From Puniceicoccaceae bacterium (GTDB taxonomy: Bacteria; Verrucomicrobiota; Verrucomicrobiia; Opitutales; Coraliomargaritaceae), in the NCBI GenBank assembly GCA_007692545.1, contig REBV01000216.1, forward strand, positions 1 through 34,084: DNA of 34,084 nucleotides, written 5' to 3'. Shown piece after piece: positions 5,322-33,052 of the stretch. How positions within the stretch are numbered: position 1 is the stretch's first letter; each line of letters opens with the position of its first letter. The notes beneath the pieces were generated by a model, which saw only the letters and a list, made by a program, of their open reading frames with translations, was not told the origin of the DNA and ran no database searches. The translations under genes were made by a program, and so were the position numbers.

Positions 5322-5759
5322 TCAGAGCTTGGCCACCTTTAAGCCTGCGGCTTTGGCGAGTTTGATTTGGCGGGTGTCGAAGCTGAGGAAGCGCTCGCAA
5401 CCGAGGGTGACGGCCATGGCGACATGAAGAATGTCGAGACTGCGGTTGCCCAGCTTTTCGCTGTGCTGTGCGCTTAGGCGTTCGGTCTCGATCAGGACAT
5501 TGCTTTGTGCGAGTTCCACGTTTTTAAAAATGCCTGCACTCAGGTCGGATAGAAGTAAGTTGAGCGAGTGGTCCCGTTGGGTGGCGGTAATTTCTTTTCT
5601 GAAGACGCGGAGGCGCAGGGCGTTGCGGAACTCCACTTGGTTGAGCCATGAAAAGGAGATAGGCACGTTTTGCCTGTCCATGAATTTTGCGGCGCGTTCG
5701 CTATTCGCATCCGGTGCGTAGAGCGAGCAAATGAAGCCGGTGTCCGCATAATCATTCAT
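5322..5759 (-). CDS. PIN-domain toxin (VapC family)
   Basis: 145 aa; PIN acidic residues in MNDYADTGFICSLY, NQVEFRNALRL, RSLDILHVAMA, FLSFDTRQ. 4-bp ATGA overlap with the upstream antitoxin. Confidence 0.88.
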   Translation of the reverse strand: MNDYADTGFICSLYAPDANSERAAKFMDRQNVPISFSWLNQVEFRNALRLRVFRKEITATQRDHSLNLLLSDLSAGIFKNVELAQSNVLIETERLSAQHSEKLGNRSLDILHVAMAVTLGCERFLSFDTRQIKLAKAAGLKVAKL

Positions 5760-11695: not shown

Positions 11696-15406
<3,711 letters not shown>

Positions 15407-15472
15407 AAACGTATCAACATATACGGATGAATTGATATGATCAAGCCAGGAAAGTTTTTTAAAAAACGGATT

Positions 15473-15877
15473 CTATCCAGGAATCCAAACTGTAAGCTCT
15501 TCAAAATAATCACGGAGATAACCGCGATCCCGGGCGAGGAGGCGATCACTGTGGATCTGAGCATGTGCTCCAATTAGAAAATCCGGGACCATGATTTGTT
15601 TCTTGTTTGTCCTTTCCAAATATCGGGTAAAATAGCATCCGGCTAAGCGGGCACTGGTAAAGTCTCCTGGTGTAAAGCGGATGCCCCAGTCCTCGAGAAA
15701 CGCGGGCAAAGACTCCTCTCCGAGTGCAGGTAGAATCTCTGCTACAACGGTCTCGCATACAAGTAATACGCCTTCCGTCATCGCTTGCCTCAGGGCAGCT
15801 TCCGACGCTTCCGCCAGGGTCGGGTCGTCGGTCAGCACGTCGAGCAGGACGGAGCTGTCAACGGACGTGCGCATCAC
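15473..15877 (-). CDS. PIN-domain toxin (VapC family)
   Basis: 134 aa MRTSVDSSVLLDVLTDDPTLAEAS...VPDFLIGAHAQIHSDRLLARDRGYLRDYF. Confidence 0.87.
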   Translation of the reverse strand: MMRTSVDSSVLLDVLTDDPTLAEASEAALRQAMTEGVLLVCETVVAEILPALGEESLPAFLEDWGIRFTPGDFTSARLAGCYFTRYLERTNKKQIMVPDFLIGAHAQIHSDRLLARDRGYLRDYFEELTVWIPG

Positions 15878-16091
15878 GGGTTTGTTTTAGATAGTCATCG
15901 ACGGAGAGACCGCCCGGAATTATACCACGACCCCGCCACTTGCGTATCGGATCTTCCTGCTGGAATTTACGAGCCAGCAGAATTCCGTTTTCATCGGAAA
16001 ACTGCAAAACAGAGCCCGTCCGCAGTCCGAGTTTATCCCTTAACTTTTTTGGAATAGTTACCTGCCCTTTTTCAGAAACGATGGCATTCAT
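15858..16091 (-). CDS. AbrB/SpoVT-like antitoxin (VapB)
   Basis: From internal ATG: MNAIVSEKGQVTIPKKLRDKLGLRTGSVLQFSDENGILLARK; 20-bp overlap with the PIN toxin. Confidence 0.88.
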   Translation of the reverse strand: MNAIVSEKGQVTIPKKLRDKLGLRTGSVLQFSDENGILLARKFQQEDPIRKWRGRGIIPGGLSVDDYLKQTRDAHVR

Positions 16092-16258
16092 ACTTTTAAG
16101 ATAATAATTCCTACCTCTTATGCAAGGAACAAAAGGACTTAAAATTGCACCCCGCCACAAAAACGTCACACCTGCCAGGGGAGCTTGGTTATGCATTTCC
16201 TGGTAGCGCTATTATTTGCGCTGTAAGCATTGCTCTCGGATGTATGGTTGTTACGGTT

Positions 16259-17092
16259 CTACCAGCGACGCATGGATCGGTTGAGTCGGGCATAGTTGCC
16301 CCAGAATCGAATGACAGCGACATGGAGCGGGCAATCTTCGCGCACCAGCACGGACTGTCCGATTGCGAGCCCTTCGTCCCGGCGCCGACAAAGTTCATGA
16401 ATGGCATCTTTACGGGTGGGGTATCCGCGCCGATCCAGCCGCGAAATAGGGATGCTGTTTTCTTTCGCGAAGCGTGACCAGTTGTTTTTAAAGCGGCTGC
16501 TGATGAAATGCTGGCCGTCTCTGCGTAATTCGCGGGAAAGGTCACGCCTTTCGCGACCGTAGAGCCCGATCAGTTGTTTCGCACGCTCAAGAAATCTATC
16601 GTAGTCGTCTTGATAGCGGGTCGCTTTACAAAACCTGTTGGCGTCGATACCAGCTGCCTTGAGTCCTGCGCTAAAAGAGCCATAGGCTTGGAATGTGCGC
16701 TGGTGTAGGGTTGAGTGCCCGTTCTCGATTAAAGCAATCTGGGTGACATCGCCCGTCTCCTTGAAAATCCGTCGTAATTCGCTTTTGATGAAGGTCTTCG
16801 TGTATTTGCCGTTCTCGCAGTGCCGCCGGATATTAGCTGGTTCAAGGCCTATCCGGCGGAGCACTTCGTCCCAGTTTCCGAAAAAATTCATGGCGTTTCG
16901 GATCAAGGTGGGTTCATGGATGAGAATCTCACGCTGGTTTAAAGGATGCCCATGCAGGTGGATGGCCATGGCGCGATCCAGGATATACTCAGCGGTGGCA
17001 AAGGGTTCCCAATGTGGGAGGATTAGCTTTTGTTGCATCGTGAGCAGTGTATCTTTTTGTGAAACTATTGGGGGGAGCTTGCGTTTCGCCAT
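16259..17092 (-). CDS. Wadjet-linked protein of unknown function with tandem homing-endonuclease-associated-repeat-like units
   Basis: From ATG at 17092 (MAKRKLPPIVSQKDTLL...), overlapping jetD by 28 bp. Recurrent units end in LIRNAMNFFGNWDEVLRRIGLEP, TFQAYGSFSAGLKAAGID, SRFKNNWSRFAKENSIPI, AVIRFWGNYARLNRSMRRW. Confidence 0.7.
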   Translation of the reverse strand: MAKRKLPPIVSQKDTLLTMQQKLILPHWEPFATAEYILDRAMAIHLHGHPLNQREILIHEPTLIRNAMNFFGNWDEVLRRIGLEPANIRRHCENGKYTKTFIKSELRRIFKETGDVTQIALIENGHSTLHQRTFQAYGSFSAGLKAAGIDANRFCKATRYQDDYDRFLERAKQLIGLYGRERRDLSRELRRDGQHFISSRFKNNWSRFAKENSIPISRLDRRGYPTRKDAIHELCRRRDEGLAIGQSVLVREDCPLHVAVIRFWGNYARLNRSMRRW

Positions 17093-18225
17093 TTGCTGAC
17101 GGCGTCGCGAACGACAGCTTCCGGTAGGAATTCTTGTTCCAGTCTGCCTTTTTTGGCGCGAACTAGCGTTTGGAAGAGTGTATGTTCCTCTGTCGTGAGG
17201 CCTTTTCTTGGGAGGGGTGCAGGTTCGGGCTCGATGACGGCTTTGTTGTTTGCTGCACTGGCAAATGTTTTTGAGTCCATCAGTAATACGGTAAGCTTGG
17301 GGCTGTGTTGTCGTGCTTGTGCGAGCAGGCGCAGTCCCCAAGTGTCGAGGTCTCCCCAGTAGGCGATGCGCTTTTTGGCTATGCATCCTGCGCTGAGCCA
17401 GTTAAGGTTGTTGCCGGAGCCAAGCACGGCAAGGGTCTCCTTACTGTTCGGTAGGAGGTGGAGTGCTCGTTCGTTTTCGACGATAATGAGATGGCTGCCG
17501 GGGAGCGTCTGGAGTTGAGCTAGTTCATCGGCGCGGACGCGCTGTTGCTTAAAGGGGAGTAGTCGGCCGTCGAGATCGGCGACTAAGAGCCAGTGGGCTT
17601 TATCAGCTGCGGCATCGAGAAAGACTTCCAGTCCTTGCTCCGAGGCTGCGCCGTTGTGGCGTAAGTCGAGCAAGCGTATGATGAGAGCACGGTGCCGCTC
17701 ATAGAATTTCGTATCCACGCCAGCATAAGGCAAGGCCCGTAGTGGTCGCCCTTGAGCACAGGCGGGCTCCAGTGCGTCAGCGAGCTGCGAGGCACGGATA
17801 ATTTCCTTTGTCGGATGCCCACGCCAGAGATTGCATTGACGTATCCAGAGAATGTGGTCGCTGGGAGGTGTGTGGCGGCAGAGTTCGGAGAGCGTGGTGT
17901 ATTCGGCTGTAATGATTTTGTCACTACAAGCGGCTACCCATTCAGATGGGCGGTCGAGGCACCATGCCACCGGTGAGTCGATGGCGCTGCCAGCTGCTCG
18001 GAAGGGGATTGGTTTCCATTCGACTCTGCCCACGTTAACGGCTTTCCACGATTCGATGTGCGCACGCAGCTTTTCGATGTCCTCTGAGATCAAGCTGGCG
18101 GGCGGTCGACCGATGGGGAATCGCAGGGGCCACTCCTTGCTATTCACGCTCAAGCGGGCTTCACGTTTGTCGGCTTGTTGCCATTGTCGGCGCAAGCGTT
18201 CGGCGATCTCTTCGGGCGTTTTCAT
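17065..18225 (-). CDS. jetD: Wadjet JetD (DUF3322/DUF2220, Toprim-like nuclease subunit)
   Basis: Start MKTPEEIAERLRRQWQQADKREARLS at 18225; Toprim-like LIIVENERALHLLP and AYWGDLDTWGLRLLAQARQ; ATGA overlap with jetC stop. Confidence 0.9.
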   Translation of the reverse strand: MKTPEEIAERLRRQWQQADKREARLSVNSKEWPLRFPIGRPPASLISEDIEKLRAHIESWKAVNVGRVEWKPIPFRAAGSAIDSPVAWCLDRPSEWVAACSDKIITAEYTTLSELCRHTPPSDHILWIRQCNLWRGHPTKEIIRASQLADALEPACAQGRPLRALPYAGVDTKFYERHRALIIRLLDLRHNGAASEQGLEVFLDAAADKAHWLLVADLDGRLLPFKQQRVRADELAQLQTLPGSHLIIVENERALHLLPNSKETLAVLGSGNNLNWLSAGCIAKKRIAYWGDLDTWGLRLLAQARQHSPKLTVLLMDSKTFASAANNKAVIEPEPAPLPRKGLTTEEHTLFQTLVRAKKGRLEQEFLPEAVVRDAVSKWRNASSPQ

Positions 18226-21200
18226 TCTGTTTTTTGCGCAAGCCGCGCATCGAGTGCTTCCCAACGAATTGAGGTGAGTGTGGCGCGGGCGTCTTTGCGG
18301 TGGACGTTGATGACGGATCGGGTGTGGTCACGCAAGAGGCGCATTTCCTTGTCTGGAGTGACGAAGATCGGATGCAGCTGGAAGACCTTGAGCGCATTGA
18401 TGATACGCCGTGCGACCGAGCGGGAGCTTTTTGAGAAAGCTTCGTCGAGTATGATGGTGGCGTGAAGGGGAGCTTGACCTTCGCCGGGGCTGAGTGCGTA
18501 GCAGAGGGAGGCGGACAAAATGTAGCTGGCGATAATTTCTTTCTCCCCTCCGGATCCGCTTTGCGAGCCTTTGAATTTACTGGTGACTTCTTTCGAGCTA
18601 CGGTCGATTTCGGCTCCGTGAAACTCGACGCGGTAGCGAGGATCGAGCAGGGCGCGGGCGTGGAGGGTGTGTTTTTTCTCCACCGCTTCGCGAACGAGGC
18701 GGATGACTTCTTGCAGGGCTTTGAAGTGCTGCTCGCTGTCTTCGTCGCGTCTGAGGTAGGCAGCACGCAGTGTTTTAAGTGCGCGTTGGAGGGTGCGCAG
18801 GCTTTCGTGAGTGACATCCTGCACATCGAGTCGCAGGTAGCGGTCTTGTTTGAAGTCGATCTTTTCCAAGCTGCGGTTGAGTTCGGCGATGCGGTCGCGG
18901 ATTTGTTCGACCTCGTTTGTGATGGTGACCAATAGCTGTGTCACCCCTTGGTCGGACGACTGGTTCAAATAGGCTTGGAAGTCTTTCCGCTTCGCAGGGA
19001 GCGCTTCGTCTTGAAGCACACGCAGGCGCTCCAGGTAGGCGGGAATGTCTCTGAGCTCAGTGCCCGCCTCGGCTAGAGCGCCGGTATCTTGTTGTTTGGC
19101 GAAACCCATTGCGCGAACGAGGTTTTCGGCGATTTTGGCCCGGTGTTTCGTTAGCTGATCATTCGAATTTTCCAGGGCAACAGTTTGCTTTCGCTCATAG
19201 CTGTCGAGCTGTTTTGGAGTGACCTCCGCTGGCCATGGCAGGTGTTCCCGGACCAGTTCGGCCTCTTGGACGGTAAGGCCTTCGGCACGACGTTCGGTCA
19301 TTTGGTCGAGTTGTTCTTGAGCATTTTTGAGGGCTTCCTCCGCCTTGGCATGGTTGCCGATAGACTCACGCTCGATGCCTTGGGCGGTGGACAGTTCCTT
19401 CTCCGCATTTTGGAAAGCTTGGTAAGCTTTCCCCGCGTCGGAGTCTGGATTCTGGAGTCGTTGGAAGCGTTTCACGAGTACATCGAGCGAGTGCTGGGCA
19501 CCCGCGAGATCGATCTGTTCGTATTCGAGTTGGGACAGTTGACTGAGCAGCATTTGGCGGCTGTCCAGCTCGCTGCGTGCTTGTTTGGCGCTGTCGTAGT
19601 CTTTGCGTTTCGTGTCGAGCCTGGGCTTGGTTTCAGCAAGCTGGTGCTCCAGCATGGCGACGCGGTCGCGGTTATCGAAGCCGGTCAACCACCCGTGATC
19701 GAGCGGTTGTTGATCTTTTTTTTCGAAGTAGCGCTTCTTCCCGGAGAGTAGACCTTCGCGCGTGAGGGCATGGGGCGTATGGGCGAGGGCGTCTGGTGAG
19801 TCGACGCAGTGCAAATCGTGGTCGGCCAGAAAGTGCTTGAGTGCTTCGCGCAGTGGATGGTCTTTGAAGTGCAGCTTTCGGGTGAAGCCATCTTCCATGA
19901 ACTGAGCGGTCTTATGCCATTGTGCATCGGCAGCCCAGCAACGGATGTGGAGGCGGAATTGTTGTTGCCCGTTTATCCAGTGGAGCGCTTCCTTGAGCTT
20001 TTCGGCAGGAACGAGTAGACGCAGGCGGTTGCCTCCGAGGGCGCGTTCGATGGCGCCGCGCCAAGCACTTTCCCCGGCTTTCACTTCAATGAGCTCGGCA
20101 ACGAAGGGGAGCTCGCTGGGTGTTAGCCCGATTGCCTCACTCAGTGCTTCGCGCAGTGCCAGGTAGTCGCCCGGAATGTTGGTGTCCGTGCGGCGCTGGG
20201 CTGCTTGGAGTAGCTCGCTTAGTTTTGAATGCTCATCGCTGATTTGGTTCAGTTCCGCACCGAGTTGATTGACACGCTCTTGGGCGGCCTCTTTTTGTCC
20301 ATGACCGCTGTTTTTGAGTCGGGCGACCTCGGTTTGCATGCGGACGAAGCTTTTCGGGCTATTTGCTGCCTCGATCTTGAGATTGGTGCAGAATTGCTGG
20401 TAGTCCTGCAGGGCAGCTTCGCGTCTGCCGCATTCGTGTTTTGAATCTTTAATACGTGCTTTGAGGTCTTCGAGGTTTTGTCCGCCGGCGCGGAGGTAGC
20501 TTTCATGGCAAGTGTTTTTTGCCACTTCCAATTCCTTGGTGAGTGCTTCTGCCTTTTCCAATTTGGCTTTTTCCTTCTCGAGTCGGGCACTGAGGGCTTC
20601 GACTTCCGTTGTCCATAGCCGGTGTCCGTTTTCAGCCACCCAAGTCGGTAGCAGGCGTTTGAGTTTTTCGAATCGATTTAGTTCGCTCAAGCATTCGGTG
20701 AGCGACTTGTGGCCGCTTTGCACGGGGAGCAGCGAGCGCTCTTGCCTTTGTGCAGTCAGGAGTTCCTCGTGGATCTCGGTCAAGCGGTCGAAGTCGCCCA
20801 CAACCTCCGCCGCGCGGTCGAATTGGGAACGATCATCCAAGACCAGTTCACGGAAAATTTCGTCGATGCTGTTAAGCTGCTTTAGGCCTGCTGCCCGGTT
20901 GAGGAGCGCGAAGGCGTTGTCACTCACTTCGAAGAAACTACGCACGCGGGCGAGGAAGCCTGTTTTGCCTCCGGTCGAAGCATCATAAACTTGTGCGCTT
21001 TCATTACTGTCGTTGATGCGTTGTTTGAGGCGACGCAGTCCGCCCTCGTTGTGGAGTGTTAGCCAGTCTTCCAGCCCCTGTTCCGGATCGCGACTGAAGA
21101 TCCATGCGCGTTTTAAGTCTGTTGCAGAAAATCCGTTTCCATCGATCCAGAGTATGCCGCCTAGCCGAACGGTTTCGGTTTCGTTGAGGTAGGTGGCGCA

Positions 21201-21536
21201 GATGCCGGTCACGGTTTTTCCCCGGCGTGAGATGTGCGATGCATCGCCGCTGTCGTTGCCCGATCCGATGACGCCGCGAACGTAAGAAACGAGATCGCGG
21301 TCACTCTCGTGGCCGCCGGTCGAGGCGAGATTGTATTTCGGCCGGGCAGCGAGCAGGGTGATGTAGGCGTCGATCAAAGTGGTCTTGCCGCTGCCTGTTT
21401 TTCCGATTACGGCTGTGCCCTCGGGGTCGATGGCAGCGCGGTGGAGGCCGCTGAATGGACCCCAGTTGTAAAGGTCGATTTGCGAGAGTCGGAAGGCGGA
21501 GCGTTCGACTTGAAAGAGTTGTCCGGGATCAGTCAT
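18222..21536 (-). CDS. jetC: Wadjet JetC (SMC-like ATPase, COG4913 type)
   Basis: Walker A VIGKTGSGKTTLIDAYITLLAARPKYNLASTGGHESDRDLVSYVRG, coiled coils, signature GSQSGSGGEKEIIASYI, Walker B ATIILDEAFSKSS. Likely start MTDPGQLFQVERSAF, 8-bp overlap with jetB. Confidence 0.93.
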   Translation of the reverse strand: MTDPGQLFQVERSAFRLSQIDLYNWGPFSGLHRAAIDPEGTAVIGKTGSGKTTLIDAYITLLAARPKYNLASTGGHESDRDLVSYVRGVIGSGNDSGDASHISRRGKTVTGICATYLNETETVRLGGILWIDGNGFSATDLKRAWIFSRDPEQGLEDWLTLHNEGGLRRLKQRINDSNESAQVYDASTGGKTGFLARVRSFFEVSDNAFALLNRAAGLKQLNSIDEIFRELVLDDRSQFDRAAEVVGDFDRLTEIHEELLTAQRQERSLLPVQSGHKSLTECLSELNRFEKLKRLLPTWVAENGHRLWTTEVEALSARLEKEKAKLEKAEALTKELEVAKNTCHESYLRAGGQNLEDLKARIKDSKHECGRREAALQDYQQFCTNLKIEAANSPKSFVRMQTEVARLKNSGHGQKEAAQERVNQLGAELNQISDEHSKLSELLQAAQRRTDTNIPGDYLALREALSEAIGLTPSELPFVAELIEVKAGESAWRGAIERALGGNRLRLLVPAEKLKEALHWINGQQQFRLHIRCWAADAQWHKTAQFMEDGFTRKLHFKDHPLREALKHFLADHDLHCVDSPDALAHTPHALTREGLLSGKKRYFEKKDQQPLDHGWLTGFDNRDRVAMLEHQLAETKPRLDTKRKDYDSAKQARSELDSRQMLLSQLSQLEYEQIDLAGAQHSLDVLVKRFQRLQNPDSDAGKAYQAFQNAEKELSTAQGIERESIGNHAKAEEALKNAQEQLDQMTERRAEGLTVQEAELVREHLPWPAEVTPKQLDSYERKQTVALENSNDQLTKHRAKIAENLVRAMGFAKQQDTGALAEAGTELRDIPAYLERLRVLQDEALPAKRKDFQAYLNQSSDQGVTQLLVTITNEVEQIRDRIAELNRSLEKIDFKQDRYLRLDVQDVTHESLRTLQRALKTLRAAYLRRDEDSEQHFKALQEVIRLVREAVEKKHTLHARALLDPRYRVEFHGAEIDRSSKEVTSKFKGSQSGSGGEKEIIASYILSASLCYALSPGEGQAPLHATIILDEAFSKSSRSVARRIINALKVFQLHPIFVTPDKEMRLLRDHTRSVINVHRKDARATLTSIRWEALDARLAQKTE

Positions 21537-22284
21537 CGATGGAATCTTCCTTTGAGGCACTGCTGACATCGGCACCTGCTGTTGGGTGTGTTTCGGCAAG
21601 TTGCCTGAAATGCTGGAGTAGGAGCGTTAATTGCTCGGGGTTGGAGAGGTGGACGATGATGGGTCGAATGTTGATTTGGTTTTCCTTGTCCAGACGGCTC
21701 ACGATGCCGTGCTTATATAGGCTATCGATTAGATTGGTGAGCCGGTTGTGGTCACGTTGTTCGCTGCCGGAGGTGCCGAGATAGAGATCGAGTTGGGCGC
21801 GTAATTCGTCGGCATCAATTCGGGCACCGTCTGCGCCGATCCCGCAGTCTTGTTCGTAGGCCATTTGTATTTGGCGTAAGATGGCGACGAGTAACGACTG
21901 CTCTGTGGTGAAGCGTTGACGGCGCACGAGCGGATGTTGCCACGCCTCGTCGCTGTTTTCGGCGGCGTGGGATGGGATCGCTAGAAAAGCAAGGCCTCGT
22001 GGCTCGTCGAAGCGTAATTCGAAGTCGAGTGGTTCTAGAATGGAGGCGATGGCGGTTTGGTCGCGCAGTAGGCGGCGGTAGATATTGGGCTTTAACTTGT
22101 GTTCAACGAGCCCTTGTCGGACGAGTTCCTGCGCGGCGGCTTTGATCGGCTCGGGAGTCGAGGTGTCGGCACCCGGCGCTGTTTCCGGCATTTCCAGCGG
22201 ATTGGTTGCGGCTATGTCGGCATGATCGGGTTCCGGCGTTTCGTCCGGTTGCGGGTTGATTCGTTGATCGAAGTAATCGTCCAT
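21529..22284 (-). CDS. jetB: Wadjet JetB (DUF4194)
   Basis: 251 aa; VEHKLKPNIYRRLLRDQTAIASILEPLDFELRFDEPRGLAFL...LVRRQRFTTEQSLLVAILRQ; between jetA and jetC. Confidence 0.88.
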   Translation of the reverse strand: MDDYFDQRINPQPDETPEPDHADIAATNPLEMPETAPGADTSTPEPIKAAAQELVRQGLVEHKLKPNIYRRLLRDQTAIASILEPLDFELRFDEPRGLAFLAIPSHAAENSDEAWQHPLVRRQRFTTEQSLLVAILRQIQMAYEQDCGIGADGARIDADELRAQLDLYLGTSGSEQRDHNRLTNLIDSLYKHGIVSRLDKENQINIRPIIVHLSNPEQLTLLLQHFRQLAETHPTAGADVSSASKEDSIDD

Positions 22285-22287
22285 CAG

Positions 22288-23868
22288 TTATTCTATGTTT
22301 TCGCGTATAATGTCGGCTAGGGCATTTGCTTGAAGCTCCACGCGTGGAAAGAAAAATCGTGTGTTCTCATCCTCAGTGTCTGTGGGGAGTATGACGCATT
22401 CTTCCTCCTCGCCAAAGGGCAATTCGCTTTCACGGGCAAGGTTTAGCCAGAAGTTGAGCGTCTCGAGATCATACTCCGGTGGTAGGGCTTCGGCTAAGTC
22501 AGCTACGGTTTTGGGTGTTTTTTGTGCGCTCAGCCAAGCCAATGTTTTCTCGTAGAGAGCGACGCGGTCGAGTTCGCGGTTACTCTCGAGGTAGCTTTCT
22601 TCCAGCGCGTCGAGTGCGCCTTTCTGTTCTTCCAGGTTGAGGATGATGGCCTCGTCGTCGTCCAGTGATTTGTAGATGATACGCTCCGGCGCGGGCACCT
22701 GACCTAGGCCCGGCGCGATGGGGTAGAGGGGTGCAGGGGTGCGGCGGACGTTTTGTTGTGACCAGTCGATCTTGAGGACGGTTTCGGCAATTTCGTCGAG
22801 TAGTTTGCCCACACGATGGTGCTCGCCAGCAAGTCCGGTTTTGATGAAGCCGCGCACGTCCTTTTCGCTGCGGGCACGGGCGCGCATGACGTTTTCTGAT
22901 TCATCAATTAGGCGTGAGACGAGGGAGCGCAGCTCACTCGCTTGCTCGGGTGATAATGCCGCAGCGCAACCTTCGAAGTCCAGCAGCCGCCGTATACGGT
23001 GACGCATTTTGTCCAGCTCGTTGCTGCGGGCGATCTGTTCGTAGAACCCGCTGAAGACTTGCCCTTCCGGTGTGCGAACCAGTGCTTCGTTGGCCGAAAG
23101 TAGGCGCTGGACGACTTGACCGCGATTATTATCGTCGCGTATAATCGATTGGCGCAGTTCGTGGTCGGCCTCTCGGTAGGAATCCTCAACACGGCGGAAA
23201 TCGGCTCGTAGGCTGGTGGCGAGGCTGTAAACCTCTCGTATTTCCTGACCGGCCTGCTCACCTTCCAAGACTTCGAAGTCACCGCTTTGCACTTTTGCCA
23301 GTTCTGCCTCCAGTTCATTGATCTTCTGTTTGAGGTAATCGCTGCGCTTTTCTTTGTCCGGATTCATTCGGGCTTCAAGCGTTTCGATTCGTTGCTGCAC
23401 GGTAGCCAAGCGTGAGGCGGTCGAAGTCATCATGCGCTCGCGGATGCTTTCGACGAAGCGGAAAGCACTTTGCAGTGCATCTGTGGCGAAGACGAGTCCC
23501 CCGCGCTCTACGAGCAGGCCTTTTCGAATCCATTCGCGTATTTCCTTGCGGGCGAGTGCGGGAAAGTCGTCGTTATGGATGTCGAAGTCCGGGTTGTTGG
23601 CATGGGCGGTCAGTAGCTTGGTCAATGCCGTGCGTGCATCTTCGAGCGGAATCTCACCGCCTGCATCTTTAAAGAGTGGTTTCAGGCAGCCGATGATCAA
23701 GGGAGCGCGGTGTGCTGCAAGGAGTTGCCAGGCTGGGTGTTGCTGGCGGTCGAGTATAAGTTCGCTCGTCGCCATGGTAGCCTCGGGGCTATCTGTAGCT
23801 ATGCGCGACGAGCTTGGCTGTGGACGAGCAAAAAGGTCGGGCTGTGCGGCTTTAGGCATGCGCGGCAT
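22288..23868 (-). CDS. jetA: Wadjet JetA (DUF3375)
   Basis: 526 aa; HPAWQLLAAHRAPLIIGCLKPLF...RFVESIRERMMTSTASRLATVQQRIETLEARMNPDKEKR; DUF3375 pattern in the canonical jetABCD order. Confidence 0.88.
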   Translation of the reverse strand: MPRMPKAAQPDLFARPQPSSSRIATDSPEATMATSELILDRQQHPAWQLLAAHRAPLIIGCLKPLFKDAGGEIPLEDARTALTKLLTAHANNPDFDIHNDDFPALARKEIREWIRKGLLVERGGLVFATDALQSAFRFVESIRERMMTSTASRLATVQQRIETLEARMNPDKEKRSDYLKQKINELEAELAKVQSGDFEVLEGEQAGQEIREVYSLATSLRADFRRVEDSYREADHELRQSIIRDDNNRGQVVQRLLSANEALVRTPEGQVFSGFYEQIARSNELDKMRHRIRRLLDFEGCAAALSPEQASELRSLVSRLIDESENVMRARARSEKDVRGFIKTGLAGEHHRVGKLLDEIAETVLKIDWSQQNVRRTPAPLYPIAPGLGQVPAPERIIYKSLDDDEAIILNLEEQKGALDALEESYLESNRELDRVALYEKTLAWLSAQKTPKTVADLAEALPPEYDLETLNFWLNLARESELPFGEEEECVILPTDTEDENTRFFFPRVELQANALADIIRENIE

Positions 23869-24029
23869 CCTTACGGTTCATTGCAGAAGCGCAATTCTTG
23901 AATGTAGCGGACGTCTGCTCGGCGGATGGCCGCCGGTGTGAGTGAATGAAGCATCCGTAAAATTCTGTTTTTGCATTTCAGGAAATGACTCCCTGTTATA
24001 GGGGTAGGACACAAGCTGGAAGCTCGCGA

Positions 24030-26755
24030 CTACTTTTCCGGCGGCTGGGCGAGGGTGGCGAATTTGGCGAAGCTGGCGGCGAGGCTTTGTAGGCTTTCCT
24101 CGTCGGGAAGGGTGAGCTGTAGGGTGGGGCGGCCCTCTTTGTCGCGGGTGACGCATTGGTTGAGGCCTTCACTGAATTGCCTTTGTAGTGCGGCTTGTGT
24201 TTTGTCGGCTTGTGGGGCTTTCGATTCGGGGAGGAGTTTTTCCAAAAAGGCGAAGGCAGCTGTGAGCATCTGGCCGCCGCTGGCGGCAAGTTCGCTCCGG
24301 CGGGATTGGAGGGCGGCCTCGGTTTCGGCGCGTTGGCTTTCATCGGCATTGGCGTCGGGTTCGGCGCCGAGGAGGATTTCGAGGCGGCGCTTGAGTTCTT
24401 CCATCCCGCTTTCGAGGGCGACGCTGTCGGTCTCGGAGTCCATGTCAAGGGCGGCGAGGGCGAGTTCTTTTTTGGCCGAAAGGGTGTCGAGGAGGCGCTC
24501 TTCGAGGGTGTCTTCAGTCACGAGGATATAGACCTGGACGGGGCGCTTTTGCCCCATGCGGTGGGCGCGGGCGATGCGTTGTTCGAGGATGGCGGGGTTC
24601 CAGGGCAGGTCGACGTTGATCACGGTGTCGGCGGCCTGAAGGTTGAGCCCGGTCGAACCGGCGTTGGTCATAATTATGAAGCGGCAGGCGGGATCGCTCT
24701 GGAAAGTTTTGACGAGTTGCTGGCGTTTCTTTTGCGGCACCTGACCGTCGAGGCGGACGTAGCCGGCGCCGACTGCGTCTAACTGTTCTTCGATTAAGTT
24801 CAGCATTTGTGTCCATTCGGAGAAAACGACGACTTTGCGCTCGGGTTCGGCATGGAGTTGCCCGATCAGCTCAGCGAGTTTTTCGAGTTTGCTGGAGTAG
24901 CCGGGGCGTTGCTTGTCGACGAGGGTGGTGCTGTCGGCCGCCATGCGGCACATGAGGAGGGCGCGTTGCAGGCGGATGAAATCCATCTCGGTGAGGTAGC
25001 TTTTCCGGGTGATGGAGGCGACAGTCTGGGCGTGGACGGCATGGAGTTCGGCCTGCTCCTCGGTGGCGGGGATGCGTATGAACTGCGTGGTGCGCGGGGG
25101 GAGTTCGCCGAGCACGGCGTCGCGGGTGCGGCGCAGAAGGATCGGCGCAATGCGTTTGCGCAGCTGGTCGAGGTTTTCTCGATGGCGGTGACTTTGCCGT
25201 CTTCGTTGACCACGCGGTGCTGGTTGAAAAAGCGGTAGGCGGGCCCGAGCCTTTGGTCATCGATGAACTCGACGACGGAGTAGAGCTCGTCGATGCGGTT
25301 CTCCATCGGGGTGCCCGTCAGAACGAGGGCGAAGGGGGAGCGTAGGGCTTTGATCACGCGGCTGGTTTTTGCCTCCCAGTTTTTAATGCGTTGGCCTTCG
25401 TCGAGAATAATCAGATCCCACTGGCAGGCTTCGATCGCGAGGATATCTTTCATCACCTGCTCGTAGTTGCAAATGGTGAAAAAGGCATCGTTGGCGTATT
25501 GCTCGGGGCGCTCGGCGGCGGCACCGAGGACTTGCTGGGCGCTGAGGTCGGAGAAGCGCTCGATTTCGGTCTGCCACTGCGACTTGAGGGAGGCAGGGCA
25601 GATGACGAGGACTTTACGGATGTTGGCCTCTTCGCGCAGGTAGGCGGCGGTGCCGATGCCTTGGATGGTTTTGCCGAGTCCCATGTCGTCGGCGAGGATG
25701 GCGCGGCAGGCACCGGCGGCGAAGGCGATGCCGTCGAGTTGGTAGGGGAGCAGTTCGGTCTTGAGGAGGCTTTTACGGAGCGGATGTTTGGTGGGGTTTT
25801 TGCGTATAGCGGCGGTTTTGGTTTCAAGGTGGTGGTGTAGCAGGATGGCCTGAATCCAGCTTTCGGCGTCGGGGTAAATACGCACTTCGTGGCCTTCGGC
25901 TTCGATCTGGCGGATGAGTTCGAGGAGCTGGTGGACGGCCTCGGGCGTGGCGGGGTCGGGCAGGGCGTCGTAGGCTTTGAGACGGGCGCGGGTCTTCATC
26001 CGCAGCTTCATCTTTTCCGGGCGCAGGAGGCGGGGGAGAATATGTTCCCCGTAGCTAAGGGCGATGGCGAATTCGCGCTGGACGTGGGGGCGGGCGCGTT
26101 CGGCGGTGGTGAACTTGCGCTGGATGTGGGCTTGGAGTTTGATCAGGTGTTTGCAGGTGCCGAGCTGGTTGGTTTTGAAATCGCGGCAACTGCAAAAAGC
26201 GTCGCCCGGCTCGAAGCTGCGGTAGGCCGCGCGGTAAGTTTTGCCAGACTGGTGGTTGTAGATTGTGTAGTCGGCCCAAGGCGTTTCCGGCTCTTGGCTT
26301 TCGATCCGCATGCGCTCTTCTTTGGCGCGCTTTTCACGTTGGGCCAGCGCGTAAGTGATCAGTGAGTCGGGATCGAGTGATTCCCAGGGCGGCTCCTCGC
26401 CCGGCGGGATGGAGAGTCCGAGCTCGAGCTTGTTATTGAGGATAAGATTGAGAACGGCCCCTTGCAGTTCGCCGTCTTGCTCGCAAGGCGTGCAACTAAT
26501 TTGCAGGCGCTTGCGTTTGTGGTCGGAGAGGTCGAGGGTAACAGCGGCGACGCGCTTGCCCTTGATCGCTGCCGGGAAGCGAACCCGCATGCGTTTGGTA
26601 CCGAGCTTCACTTGCGCCGGAATGTTGATTTCGTAGCGGCGACCTTCGTTGAGCAGTCGCTTGGCATCGGCGCCGAGGAGTTTTTCAGCCCGCTTCAGGT
26701 TCAGGCGGGAGAGGTGATCGTGGAGCTTGAGTTGTTTGGCGGGTTTGGTGGCCAT
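24030..26755 (-). pseudogene. SWIM/SNF2 family helicase split by a frameshift
   Basis: ORF 24866-26755 (SWIM-like FCSCRDFKTNQLGTCKHLI, ADDMGLGKTIQ, LDEGQRIKN) changes frame after GKVTAIEK; the C-terminal half continues in ORF 24030-25115 (NAGSTGLNLQAADTVINVDLPWNPAILEQRIARAHRMGQ). The shift maps to the AAAA run at about 25174-25177. Confidence 0.85.
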
Positions 26756-26957
26756 AGTATTTTTCGGAATTCAGATGGTAAAGGAAGCAAAGCGCTAATC
26801 TGTGAGGATGGCTGGCATTCTGGCAAGCCGAACACAAGATCGTGAAGTCCTTTTTTGCCCCGTTCACGGCCAGGAGCTTGAGAGTATCCATTTGCTGCCG
26901 CGCGGATTTGTTATTTTTGCTTAGCTTGCAAATTCGTACTAAAAATGTGAACAAGCC

Positions 26958-26991
26958 AAAAAAAAGCTCTGCGGAAAATCCGCAGAGCTTT
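26958..26991 (-). terminator. Intrinsic terminator
   Basis: Perfect 12-bp stem aagctctgcgga-aaa-tccgcagagctt at 26964-26990; U-tract on the minus strand from the A-run 26958-26965; downstream of the 27016-27504 gene. Confidence 0.9.
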
Positions 26992-27015: not shown

Positions 27016-27504
27016 TTAAGCTAGCAACTCAGCATTGACCGAGAAGCTGGACTTCTTATCACCTTTGTCGCCGCAGGTCTTGTCACCACAGCCTGTGCTG
27101 GCAAGGAGGGAATCAGAAACCGCTAATTCACACTTGGTTTCTTTCTTCTTTTTGTCACCGCAGCTTTTTTCGCCGCACTCTGCGCTGGCAACCAGGGAAT
27201 CAGAAACCGTCAATTCACACTTGGTTTCCTTTTTCTTTTTGTCACCGCAGCTTTTTTCACCACACTCAGCGCTGGCAACTAGGGAATCGGAAACCGTCAA
27301 TTCACACTTGGTTTCCTTTTTCTTTTTGTCGCTGCAGCTTTTTTCACCGCACTCTGAGCTGGCAACGGTGATTGCAGCTTCGCTGAATTCAGTTTTGGTG
27401 TCTTTTTTGTCTTTGTCACCGCCGCTACCAGGGCAGCAAGTGGTGCCCGCATAGGCGAGTGAAGCGGATAAAGCAAGAATTGCAGTTAAGAGTATTTTTT
27501 TCAT
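27016..27504 (-). CDS. Secreted Cys/Lys-rich tandem-repeat protein
   Basis: 162 aa; signal peptide MKKILLTAILALSASLAYAGTTCC; repeats of ASAECGEKSCGDKKKKETKCELTVSDSLV. Confidence 0.85.
   Translation of the reverse strand: MKKILLTAILALSASLAYAGTTCCPGSGGDKDKKDTKTEFSEAAITVASSECGEKSCSDKKKKETKCELTVSDSLVASAECGEKSCGDKKKKETKCELTVSDSLVASAECGEKSCGDKKKKETKCELAVSDSLLASTGCGDKTCGDKGDKKSSFSVNAELLA
27111..27371. repeat. Three 87-bp tandem repeats (29 aa each) inside the Cys-rich gene
   Basis: Repeat phase aatc(a/g)gaaaccg starts at 27111, 27198 and 27285 (period 87). Confidence 0.9.
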
Positions 27505-30698: not shown

Positions 30699-31775
30699 AT
30701 GCGCATTCTCAATCTACGCTTACAGAACTTCCGCAATGTCGAATTTGCCGAACTGGCGTTGACGGGTGATCGCCACTTTCTTCTCGGTCAAAACGGGCAG
30801 GGTAAGTCGAACGTGCTGGAGGCCCTGGGCCTGATCACGGCTCTGCGCTCTTTCCGGACCCAGACGCTGTCGGTCCTGGCGCGCAAGGGGCAGGCGGAAT
30901 ATGCCCTGGCCTATGAACTGGAGCACGAGATCGAGGGCCGCACCTCCCTTGAAATTCGCGCCGGGCGCGGGGGGCGGCAGGTGCAGATCGACGGCGAAAA
31001 AGTGACCCGGCTGGTTGATTTTATCGGCCGTTTTCCGGTGGTCACGTTATGCTCCGGCGACATTATGCTCCTGCGCGGAAGCCCGGCCGAGCGCCGGCGC
31101 TTTATGGACCTAAGCCTGTCCGTAGTCAGCCGCCCTTACTACCTCGCGCTGCGGGATTTCCACCGTGGCATCGCGGAGCGCAATCGCCTCCTGAAAAAGG
31201 GCGGGAGTGCTGCCGAGTTTTCTGCCTTCGAGGCTGAGATTGCTCCGCATGCCGCCCGGATTGCCGCCTTTCGCACGACGGGGATGGCGCATTTTCGCCG
31301 GGTGCTGGGGGAGGTCTATAATGAAATCGCTGAGGCTGAGGAGGGCCCGGAGCTGGTGTTTAAACCGAACGTGGACGCAAGCGATACAGAGGCCTACCTG
31401 CGCCTGTTGCGCGATGGTCGGGAGCGCGACCGCATCCTGGGGGCCACTCAGCGTGGCCCGCACCGGGATGACTTTAGCCTCGCGTTGACCGTGGGTGGCG
31501 CCCGCGAATACGCCTCAGACGGCCAGCAACGCGGACTCTGCGTGGCCCTGCGTATCGCGCAGGCCAGCTACTACCGCGAGCAGCTCGGCCGAGTACCGGT
31601 CCTTTTAGCCGACGATGTCCTGGGAGAGTTGGACCCTGTCCGCCGGGAGGGGTTCTGGCGGGCCTGCCCGCAAGATGTGCAGATTATTGCCAGCGGCACC
31701 GAGTTGCCAGTGGACTCGGTCAACTGGGTCGTGAATTCTGTGGCCGGCGGCTGCGTTCAAAGATGCACGCGATGA
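30699..31775 (+). CDS. recF: DNA replication and repair protein RecF
   Basis: MRILNLRLQNFRNVEFAELALTGDRHFLLGQNGQGKSNVLEALGLITALRSFR...LLADDVLGELDPVRREGFW. Confidence 0.95.
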   Translation: MRILNLRLQNFRNVEFAELALTGDRHFLLGQNGQGKSNVLEALGLITALRSFRTQTLSVLARKGQAEYALAYELEHEIEGRTSLEIRAGRGGRQVQIDGEKVTRLVDFIGRFPVVTLCSGDIMLLRGSPAERRRFMDLSLSVVSRPYYLALRDFHRGIAERNRLLKKGGSAAEFSAFEAEIAPHAARIAAFRTTGMAHFRRVLGEVYNEIAEAEEGPELVFKPNVDASDTEAYLRLLRDGRERDRILGATQRGPHRDDFSLALTVGGAREYASDGQQRGLCVALRIAQASYYREQLGRVPVLLADDVLGELDPVRREGFWRACPQDVQIIASGTELPVDSVNWVVNSVAGGCVQRCTR

Positions 31776-33052
31776 CTCTGCCCAATCGGCTCGATCCAGC
31801 TCTCCGTGACGCCGGCTCGTCCGGCATATTCGGGCCATTGCCTGACCGCCTGGCTGACTTCGGTATAAATGCGGCGGGCGGTGCCTCGTTTGAGCAGGGC
31901 CTGCTGGGCAGTGGCTTCGAGGTCGGTCAGGGTGAAGTGGTCGCGCTTGCCGTTGACTGACATCTGGTGCCGAGCGGTCCAGTCTCCGTCCGGATTGTAA
32001 CTAAAGGTCACATCATAGGCGGGGGCGAGGGCCCACTGGCCGGCCTGGTTCATCAGGAAGGCGATGTTCTTGACGTGATCGTCCTGGTTGCGCGCGACGA
32101 TGTTAAAGACCATGCGGCGGAACTGCGCTTCGACCGAATCGGCGGCTAGGCCCAGTTGGCGCATCGTGAGGAAGGCCTGCTCGTAGCTGTGTGCTCCGGC
32201 GGCATTGAAGTCGTAGTGGGCGAGTGCGCCCAGGCTCTGCATGTGCAGCTTGCTGCCATCGGGGCGGCGGTCGAAGCGCTTAGTCATGAAATGGCGGCGG
32301 CCATTCTCCTCCAGCAGACGGCATTCGCTCATCTGGATGCCCGCCGCCTTGGCCATCAGGTAGTAGGCATACTCGACTGCACCATAGCCTTGGGGGTCTT
32401 CCAGCTCTTTATCCCGATTGCCCGATACCCCGTCGAATTTGAGTAGCCAATATTCGAAAAAAGAGTCGCTCTCAATCTGCCCGGAGCGCACTTCATTGGT
32501 TTCCCGGTTCCAGGCGATGATCGCCTTGGCCCGGGCACCACCCGCCGAAGTGCCGACCCGCAGGATGTCTTTCAGGGCACTTTCCCGTTTGCCGCTGGCA
32601 AAACTGCCCTGGAGATTTTTACGCTGACTGAGAATTTCCGTCGCCAGTGAGACCAGGGCATCGATCTCAATTTTTCGGGCCTGGGCTGGGCGTGGTCCGA
32701 GGCCCGGGCTGAACTCCAGCGCCCCCATGCCGCGCTTCCCGATATAACAAAGCCGCTCGACCGGATTGAAGTCGGCGGGGCGCCGCCCTTGAGCGGCCAG
32801 CCAACTGTCAATCAAGGCATGACCAAACTTGTCCGGCAGAGAGTCGGCGACCAGACCCGGCAAACCGGAAAATGTCTCTCTCGGCAAATTAGGAAATCGG
32901 TAGATGTCTTGACGTAAAGGCATTTGTAGGGGTGCGACTTCGATCCCGCTCTCGATAAAGTCTTCGGCATATTGGAAGGCGGCGCAGCGACTGGCCGCAT
33001 CCCAACGGATGGCACCGATCCGGCGCCCCCAAAGTTGGATATCGGCTAACAT
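31757..33052 (-). CDS. hipA: HipA-like serine/threonine kinase toxin
   Basis: 431 aa; GTSAGGARAKAIIAWN, RRHFMTKRFDR, VARNQDDHVKNIAFLM, LAPAYDVTFSY. Overlaps recF 3' end by 19 bp on the opposite strand. Confidence 0.93.
   Translation of the reverse strand: MLADIQLWGRRIGAIRWDAASRCAAFQYAEDFIESGIEVAPLQMPLRQDIYRFPNLPRETFSGLPGLVADSLPDKFGHALIDSWLAAQGRRPADFNPVERLCYIGKRGMGALEFSPGLGPRPAQARKIEIDALVSLATEILSQRKNLQGSFASGKRESALKDILRVGTSAGGARAKAIIAWNRETNEVRSGQIESDSFFEYWLLKFDGVSGNRDKELEDPQGYGAVEYAYYLMAKAAGIQMSECRLLEENGRRHFMTKRFDRRPDGSKLHMQSLGALAHYDFNAAGAHSYEQAFLTMRQLGLAADSVEAQFRRMVFNIVARNQDDHVKNIAFLMNQAGQWALAPAYDVTFSYNPDGDWTARHQMSVNGKRDHFTLTDLEATAQQALLKRGTARRIYTEVSQAVRQWPEYAGRAGVTESWIEPIGQSHRVHL

Follow-up and report, generated by a model that had tools for sequence, protein, structure and literature searches.

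Directly after jetD in a Wadjet operon of a Puniceicoccaceae bacterium lies an ORF of 277 codons, which raises the question of whether it encodes a fifth Wadjet component or is only a neighbor of the system. In Wadjet, the JetABC SMC motor extrudes DNA and the JetD nuclease cleaves closed circular plasmids. The window, i.e., the whole stretch of 34,084 nucleotides analyzed here, is an entire contig (REBV01000216.1, here C312) of a genome assembly that comprises 321 contigs, with a completeness of 92.6% and a contamination of 6.6%. Neither an Rfam nor a tRNA scan gave a match in the window, and no description of a fifth Wadjet gene was found in the literature, as judged from titles. As argued below, the locus is an ordinary, complete type I Wadjet system on a defense island of ~11.5 kb, and the fifth ORF is most likely an N-terminally truncated passenger rather than a Wadjet component. 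The features concerned are listed in Table 1.

Table 1. Positions in the window of the Wadjet genes, the fifth ORF and the surrounding island
Feature	Position	Strand	Match or remark
jetA (DUF3375, MukF-like kleisin)	22288..23868	-	PADLOC JetA1, E 9.9e-188, from residue 32; Pfam DUF3375, E 6e-94
jetB (DUF4194, MukE-like)	21529..22284	-	PADLOC JetB1, E 2.6e-76
jetC (MukB-like SMC ATPase)	18222..21536	-	PADLOC JetC1, E 0; JetC 8as8, E 1e-297
jetD (Toprim nuclease)	17065..18225	-	PADLOC JetD1, E 3.9e-151; JetD 7til, E 1.3e-105, and 8q72, E 5.6e-101
Fifth ORF, 277 aa, HNH_repeat-type helical repeats	16259..17092	-	Alternative start ATG 17038
jetD/fifth-ORF overlap, 28 bp	17065..17092	-	Encodes no residues conserved among relatives
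VapBC-like toxin–antitoxin pair (MazE/AbrB antitoxin, PIN toxin)	15473..16196	-	Island edge
SNF2-family helicase, frameshift-split, island cargo	24030..26755	-	
Putative acquired block, approximate extent	15450..26960	.	Same-genus genomes lack it between metH and the 27016 gene

The Wadjet core itself proved to be unexceptional. A first-pass annotation of the window had described jetA-B-C-D as a contiguous, complete type I operon, and this description was borne out: all four products match JetA1, JetB1, JetC1, and JetD1 in PADLOC (E 2.6e-76 to 0), Pfam agrees, and the junctions comprise a 3-bp gap between jetA and jetB, an 8-bp overlap between jetB and jetC, and an ATGA overlap between jetC and jetD, as had been noted there. 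JetC and JetD align over nearly their full length with Wadjet proteins of solved structure. The ATP-site (ATPase) motifs of JetC are in place in the alignment to 8as8, the catalytic Glu of JetD aligns with the position mutated in 8q72 (E248A), and the GDxD motif is kept. The true start of jetA is probably 23775 rather than 23868, since GAGG lies just upstream of that ATG and the JetA profile begins at residue 32. The operon shares all four genes, the A-B-C-D order, and the tight overlaps with the solved type I systems of E. coli (8as8 and 8q72) and P. aeruginosa (8dk2 and 7til); no difference was found in the four core genes, and the window adds an ORF after jetD. Judged by orthology, the operon is probably working and would restrict circular plasmids.

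The next gene had been taken to start inside jetD. The 28-bp overlap does exist when ATG 17092 is used, but it hinges on the choice of start: ATG 17038, located 27 nt past the jetD stop, is an equally possible start, and no clear Shine-Dalgarno site was found at either ATG. Residues 1 to 11 of the fifth protein match no relative, and residues 1 to 21 have pLDDT values <50 in the AlphaFold model. The jetD stop falls at codons 9 to 10 of the fifth ORF and similarity to relatives begins at residue 12 to 24, that is, at the jetD stop or at most about 36 nt past it; therefore, the overlap encodes nothing conserved. The in-frame coding signature likewise sets in at the end of jetD and runs to the stop codon, at the same level in the fifth ORF (0.122) as in the jet genes (0.07–0.27). 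An annotation artefact, i.e., a frame that is not translated, would fit the lack of a clear ribosome site at both starts, but the coding signature along the whole ORF and the protein similarity to relatives (E 7.6e-41) make such an artefact scarcely credible. The fifth ORF is thus a coding frame, and since it is open over all 277 codons with a codon signature like that of the jet genes throughout, it was either recently truncated or is still selected.

What this frame encodes was examined at the level of profile and structure. The resemblance to homing-endonuclease-associated repeats suggested by the first reading was supported by a PF18780 match over two stretches (25.4 bits, E 1.8e-5), just under the curated Pfam cut-off of 26; two of the relatives described below (L002 and L003) score above the gathering cut-off of this family. 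One publication (PMC8078820) lists PF18780 in its table of modelled repeat families. The repeat signal exceeds chance: with an independent repeat HMM, derived from other proteins, the fifth protein scored 44.9 bits, whereas none of 1000 shuffled sequences scored above 12.0. This HMM placed three units (residues 35–87, 104–151, and 221–268). AlphaFold predicted four all-helical units (about 34–89, 99–154, 161–211, and 227–276) with a mean pLDDT of 78.8 and a pTM of 0.38, leaving the arrangement of the units uncertain; the third of these was missed by the repeat HMM. A motif proposed for all four units, (F/W)-G-(N/S)-(W/F/Y)-x-x-x-(L/A)-x-x-x-G-(I/L), held strictly in unit 1 only (FGNWDEVLRRIGL); unit 2 reads YGSFSAGLKAAGI, and units 3 and 4 (FKNNWSRFAKENSI and WGNYARLNRSMRRW) do not fit. 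The fifth protein thus shares two matched stretches and a predicted helical repeat architecture with the PF18780 family, from which it differs in its divergent units 3 and 4 and in having no HNH nuclease domain, as no Pfam nuclease match and no HNH-like pattern were found in it. A PDB sequence search gave no match to the fifth protein itself, and the match of the family profile in the PDB was limited to a Ros zinc finger (E 7e-4), a part absent from the fifth protein. Foldseek searches against the PDB and viral structures gave no match at E <= 1e-3.

Comparison with relatives revealed that the N-terminal part of the family is missing from this protein. A search of the order (273 genomes) turned up just two relatives: one belongs to the same genus (G049) and the other to a different family. 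A profile search of 388 genomes of the phylum added two further full-length relatives along with many generic HNH_repeat-like proteins. The sole close relative is 38% identical to the fifth protein. A GTDB genome scan returned one relative locus only; 72,556 plasmid records, 50,697 phage records, and IMG/VR gave no match, and the family profile had a single match in the whole host genome. All four full-length relatives (L002, 314 aa; L003, 631 aa; L042, from a 913-aa frame; and L043, 513 aa) consist of an N-terminal repeat, a ROS/MucR-type CxxC-H-H zinc finger near residues 69 to 90, a linker, and then repeats; the linker after the finger reads PHWEPL in three of them. The fifth protein, which shares the linker and repeats with them at about 20–39% identity, aligns from its own residue 12 to 24 only to their residues ~110–124 onward, so that the N-terminal repeat and zinc finger, ~110 residues present in all four, are absent from it. 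A convincing candidate for the missing N-terminal piece was not found in the rest of the window. On the simplest reading, the 5′ part was lost at the jetD junction rather than never having been present, and ATG 17092 is an out-of-frame ATG inside jetD. Because the fifth protein is an N-terminally truncated member of this zinc-finger and HNH_repeat family, the overlap with jetD looks like a by-product of the junction and not a designed coupling. Co-transcription of the fifth ORF with the jet genes is plausible.

An accessory or regulator of Wadjet, as the first reading had proposed, would be expected at other Wadjet loci, and this expectation was not supported. The phylum sample contained 22 further jetD loci, and in none of them does a relative of the fifth protein follow jetD within the downstream flank examined (about 530 to 1490 bp). 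Five of these 22 jetD products are 47–55% identical to that of the window, one of them from the same genus, and no further close jetD was found with a broader sampling of the order (373 genomes). Neither of two annotated plasmid Wadjets has an HNH_repeat-named gene directly after jetD, going by annotation names; in one of them, the annotation places a "hypothetical protein" some 500 bp past jetD. Conversely, the flanks of the relatives' loci (most about 1.5 kb, 10 kb for L025) contained no Jet protein. In the same-genus genome with the closest relative (G049), Wadjet lies on a different contig from the relative and has no relative beside it; the relative there adjoins RadC-like and ThiF-like genes, named from reading their translations. 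Near the closest relative, positions 13783–16131 of L025 (PBYS01000054.1) carry consecutive ubiquitin-like, E2-like, JAB-like, and ThiF/E1-like genes, again from reading, a run resembling the ubiquitin-like conjugation operons of bacteria. Across the sampled genomes, the family was found mostly away from Wadjet, an outcome that the first-pass annotation itself had named as speaking against its proposal.

The surroundings of the operon point to its acquisition as part of a larger block. Three genomes of the genus carry a homologue of the window's 27016 gene within about 160 to 700 bases of metH, with no jet, fifth-ORF, or SNF2 genes at this site, and in two of the three this is followed by ahpC and TPR-LysM genes, matching the window. 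On the metH side, the window's DNA similarity to these three stops at 15445–15451, and on the other side it starts again near 27400; they also seem to share a terminator-like hairpin near 26970. Because the metH site is free of the island in these genomes, the ~11.5 kb from about 15450 to 26960 (VapBC, fifth ORF, jetDCBA, and frameshifted SNF2) are best read as an acquired block, with loss from the same-genus relatives instead of gain in the window genome as a formal alternative. No direct or inverted repeats of at least 10 bp join the two island edges. The VapBC-like pair sits between the fifth ORF and metH. The SNF2-family helicase is split into two overlapping frames, one with the SNF2-rel domain and the other with Helicase_C, and is either a frameshifted pseudogene or an assembly error; 14 further genomes from this genus gave no match to it at E <= 1e-60. 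The 27016 gene (27016–27504, minus strand) encodes a 162-aa protein that looks secreted and contains internal repeats rich in Cys and Lys (SAECGEKSCGDKKKKETKCELTVSDSLVA). Outside the island, the window also carries a HipA-like kinase gene (31757–33052, minus strand; HipA_C E 3.9e-52), and a second PIN-domain protein is encoded at 5322–5759 (minus strand), with homologues of about 31% identity near metH in two genomes (G227 and G033).

These observations bear on what the fifth ORF is. It is most likely a passenger, since its relatives adjoin Wadjet in no other genome examined; what speaks against this reading are the frame, open throughout with a jet-like codon signature, and the operon position and common strand, which would give co-expression with the jet genes. 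A lineage-specific Wadjet accessory, namely a repeat protein that binds DNA, is translated together with JetD, and alters substrate recognition or protects the host chromosome, would account for this position, the 28-bp overlap, and the strand, and it would suit the jet-like coding signature and the DNA-binding type of the repeat family. Since close relatives of this jetD are few (the five noted above), such an accessory is possible, position being its support; yet the absence of recurrence at the 22 jetD loci and the two plasmid Wadjets, the life of its relatives apart from Wadjet, and the N terminus missing at the jetD junction make it improbable.

The ORF could also be a functional gene in its own right, encoding a short-form DNA-binding repeat protein that is a mere neighbor of Wadjet and perhaps serves as a regulator or in another island system. 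Its long open frame and normal codon signature suit this idea, as does the occurrence of short HNH_repeat proteins (about 200–285 aa) without a zinc finger elsewhere in the phylum; its closest relatives, however, carry the zinc finger and the common linker after it, and it has no ribosome site of its own, so we consider an independent gene unlikely. Very improbable, in our estimate, is that an HNH_repeat protein lost its zinc finger on joining jetD and was then taken up into the Wadjet of this lineage as a fifth subunit, tuning DNA recognition or protecting host DNA.

Under the preferred reading of a truncated passenger, a defense island of ~11.5 kb with jetABCD would have inserted upstream of metH, and a zinc-finger and HNH_repeat gene would have become joined to the 3′ end of jetD, losing its first ~110 residues there. 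The fifth ORF would be the remaining C-terminal part with four helical HNH_repeat-type units. Run-on transcription from the jet operon probably reaches it, its truncated product is possibly still translated, and this product may still bind DNA weakly. The case pairs a Wadjet island with its counterpart in the same genus, a site beside metH that lacks the island, and it illustrates how arguments from operon position can mislead, since the seemingly co-translated fifth gene is probably a truncated passenger at a junction. Were it instead a real subunit, the fifth protein would give Wadjet a new DNA-binding component.
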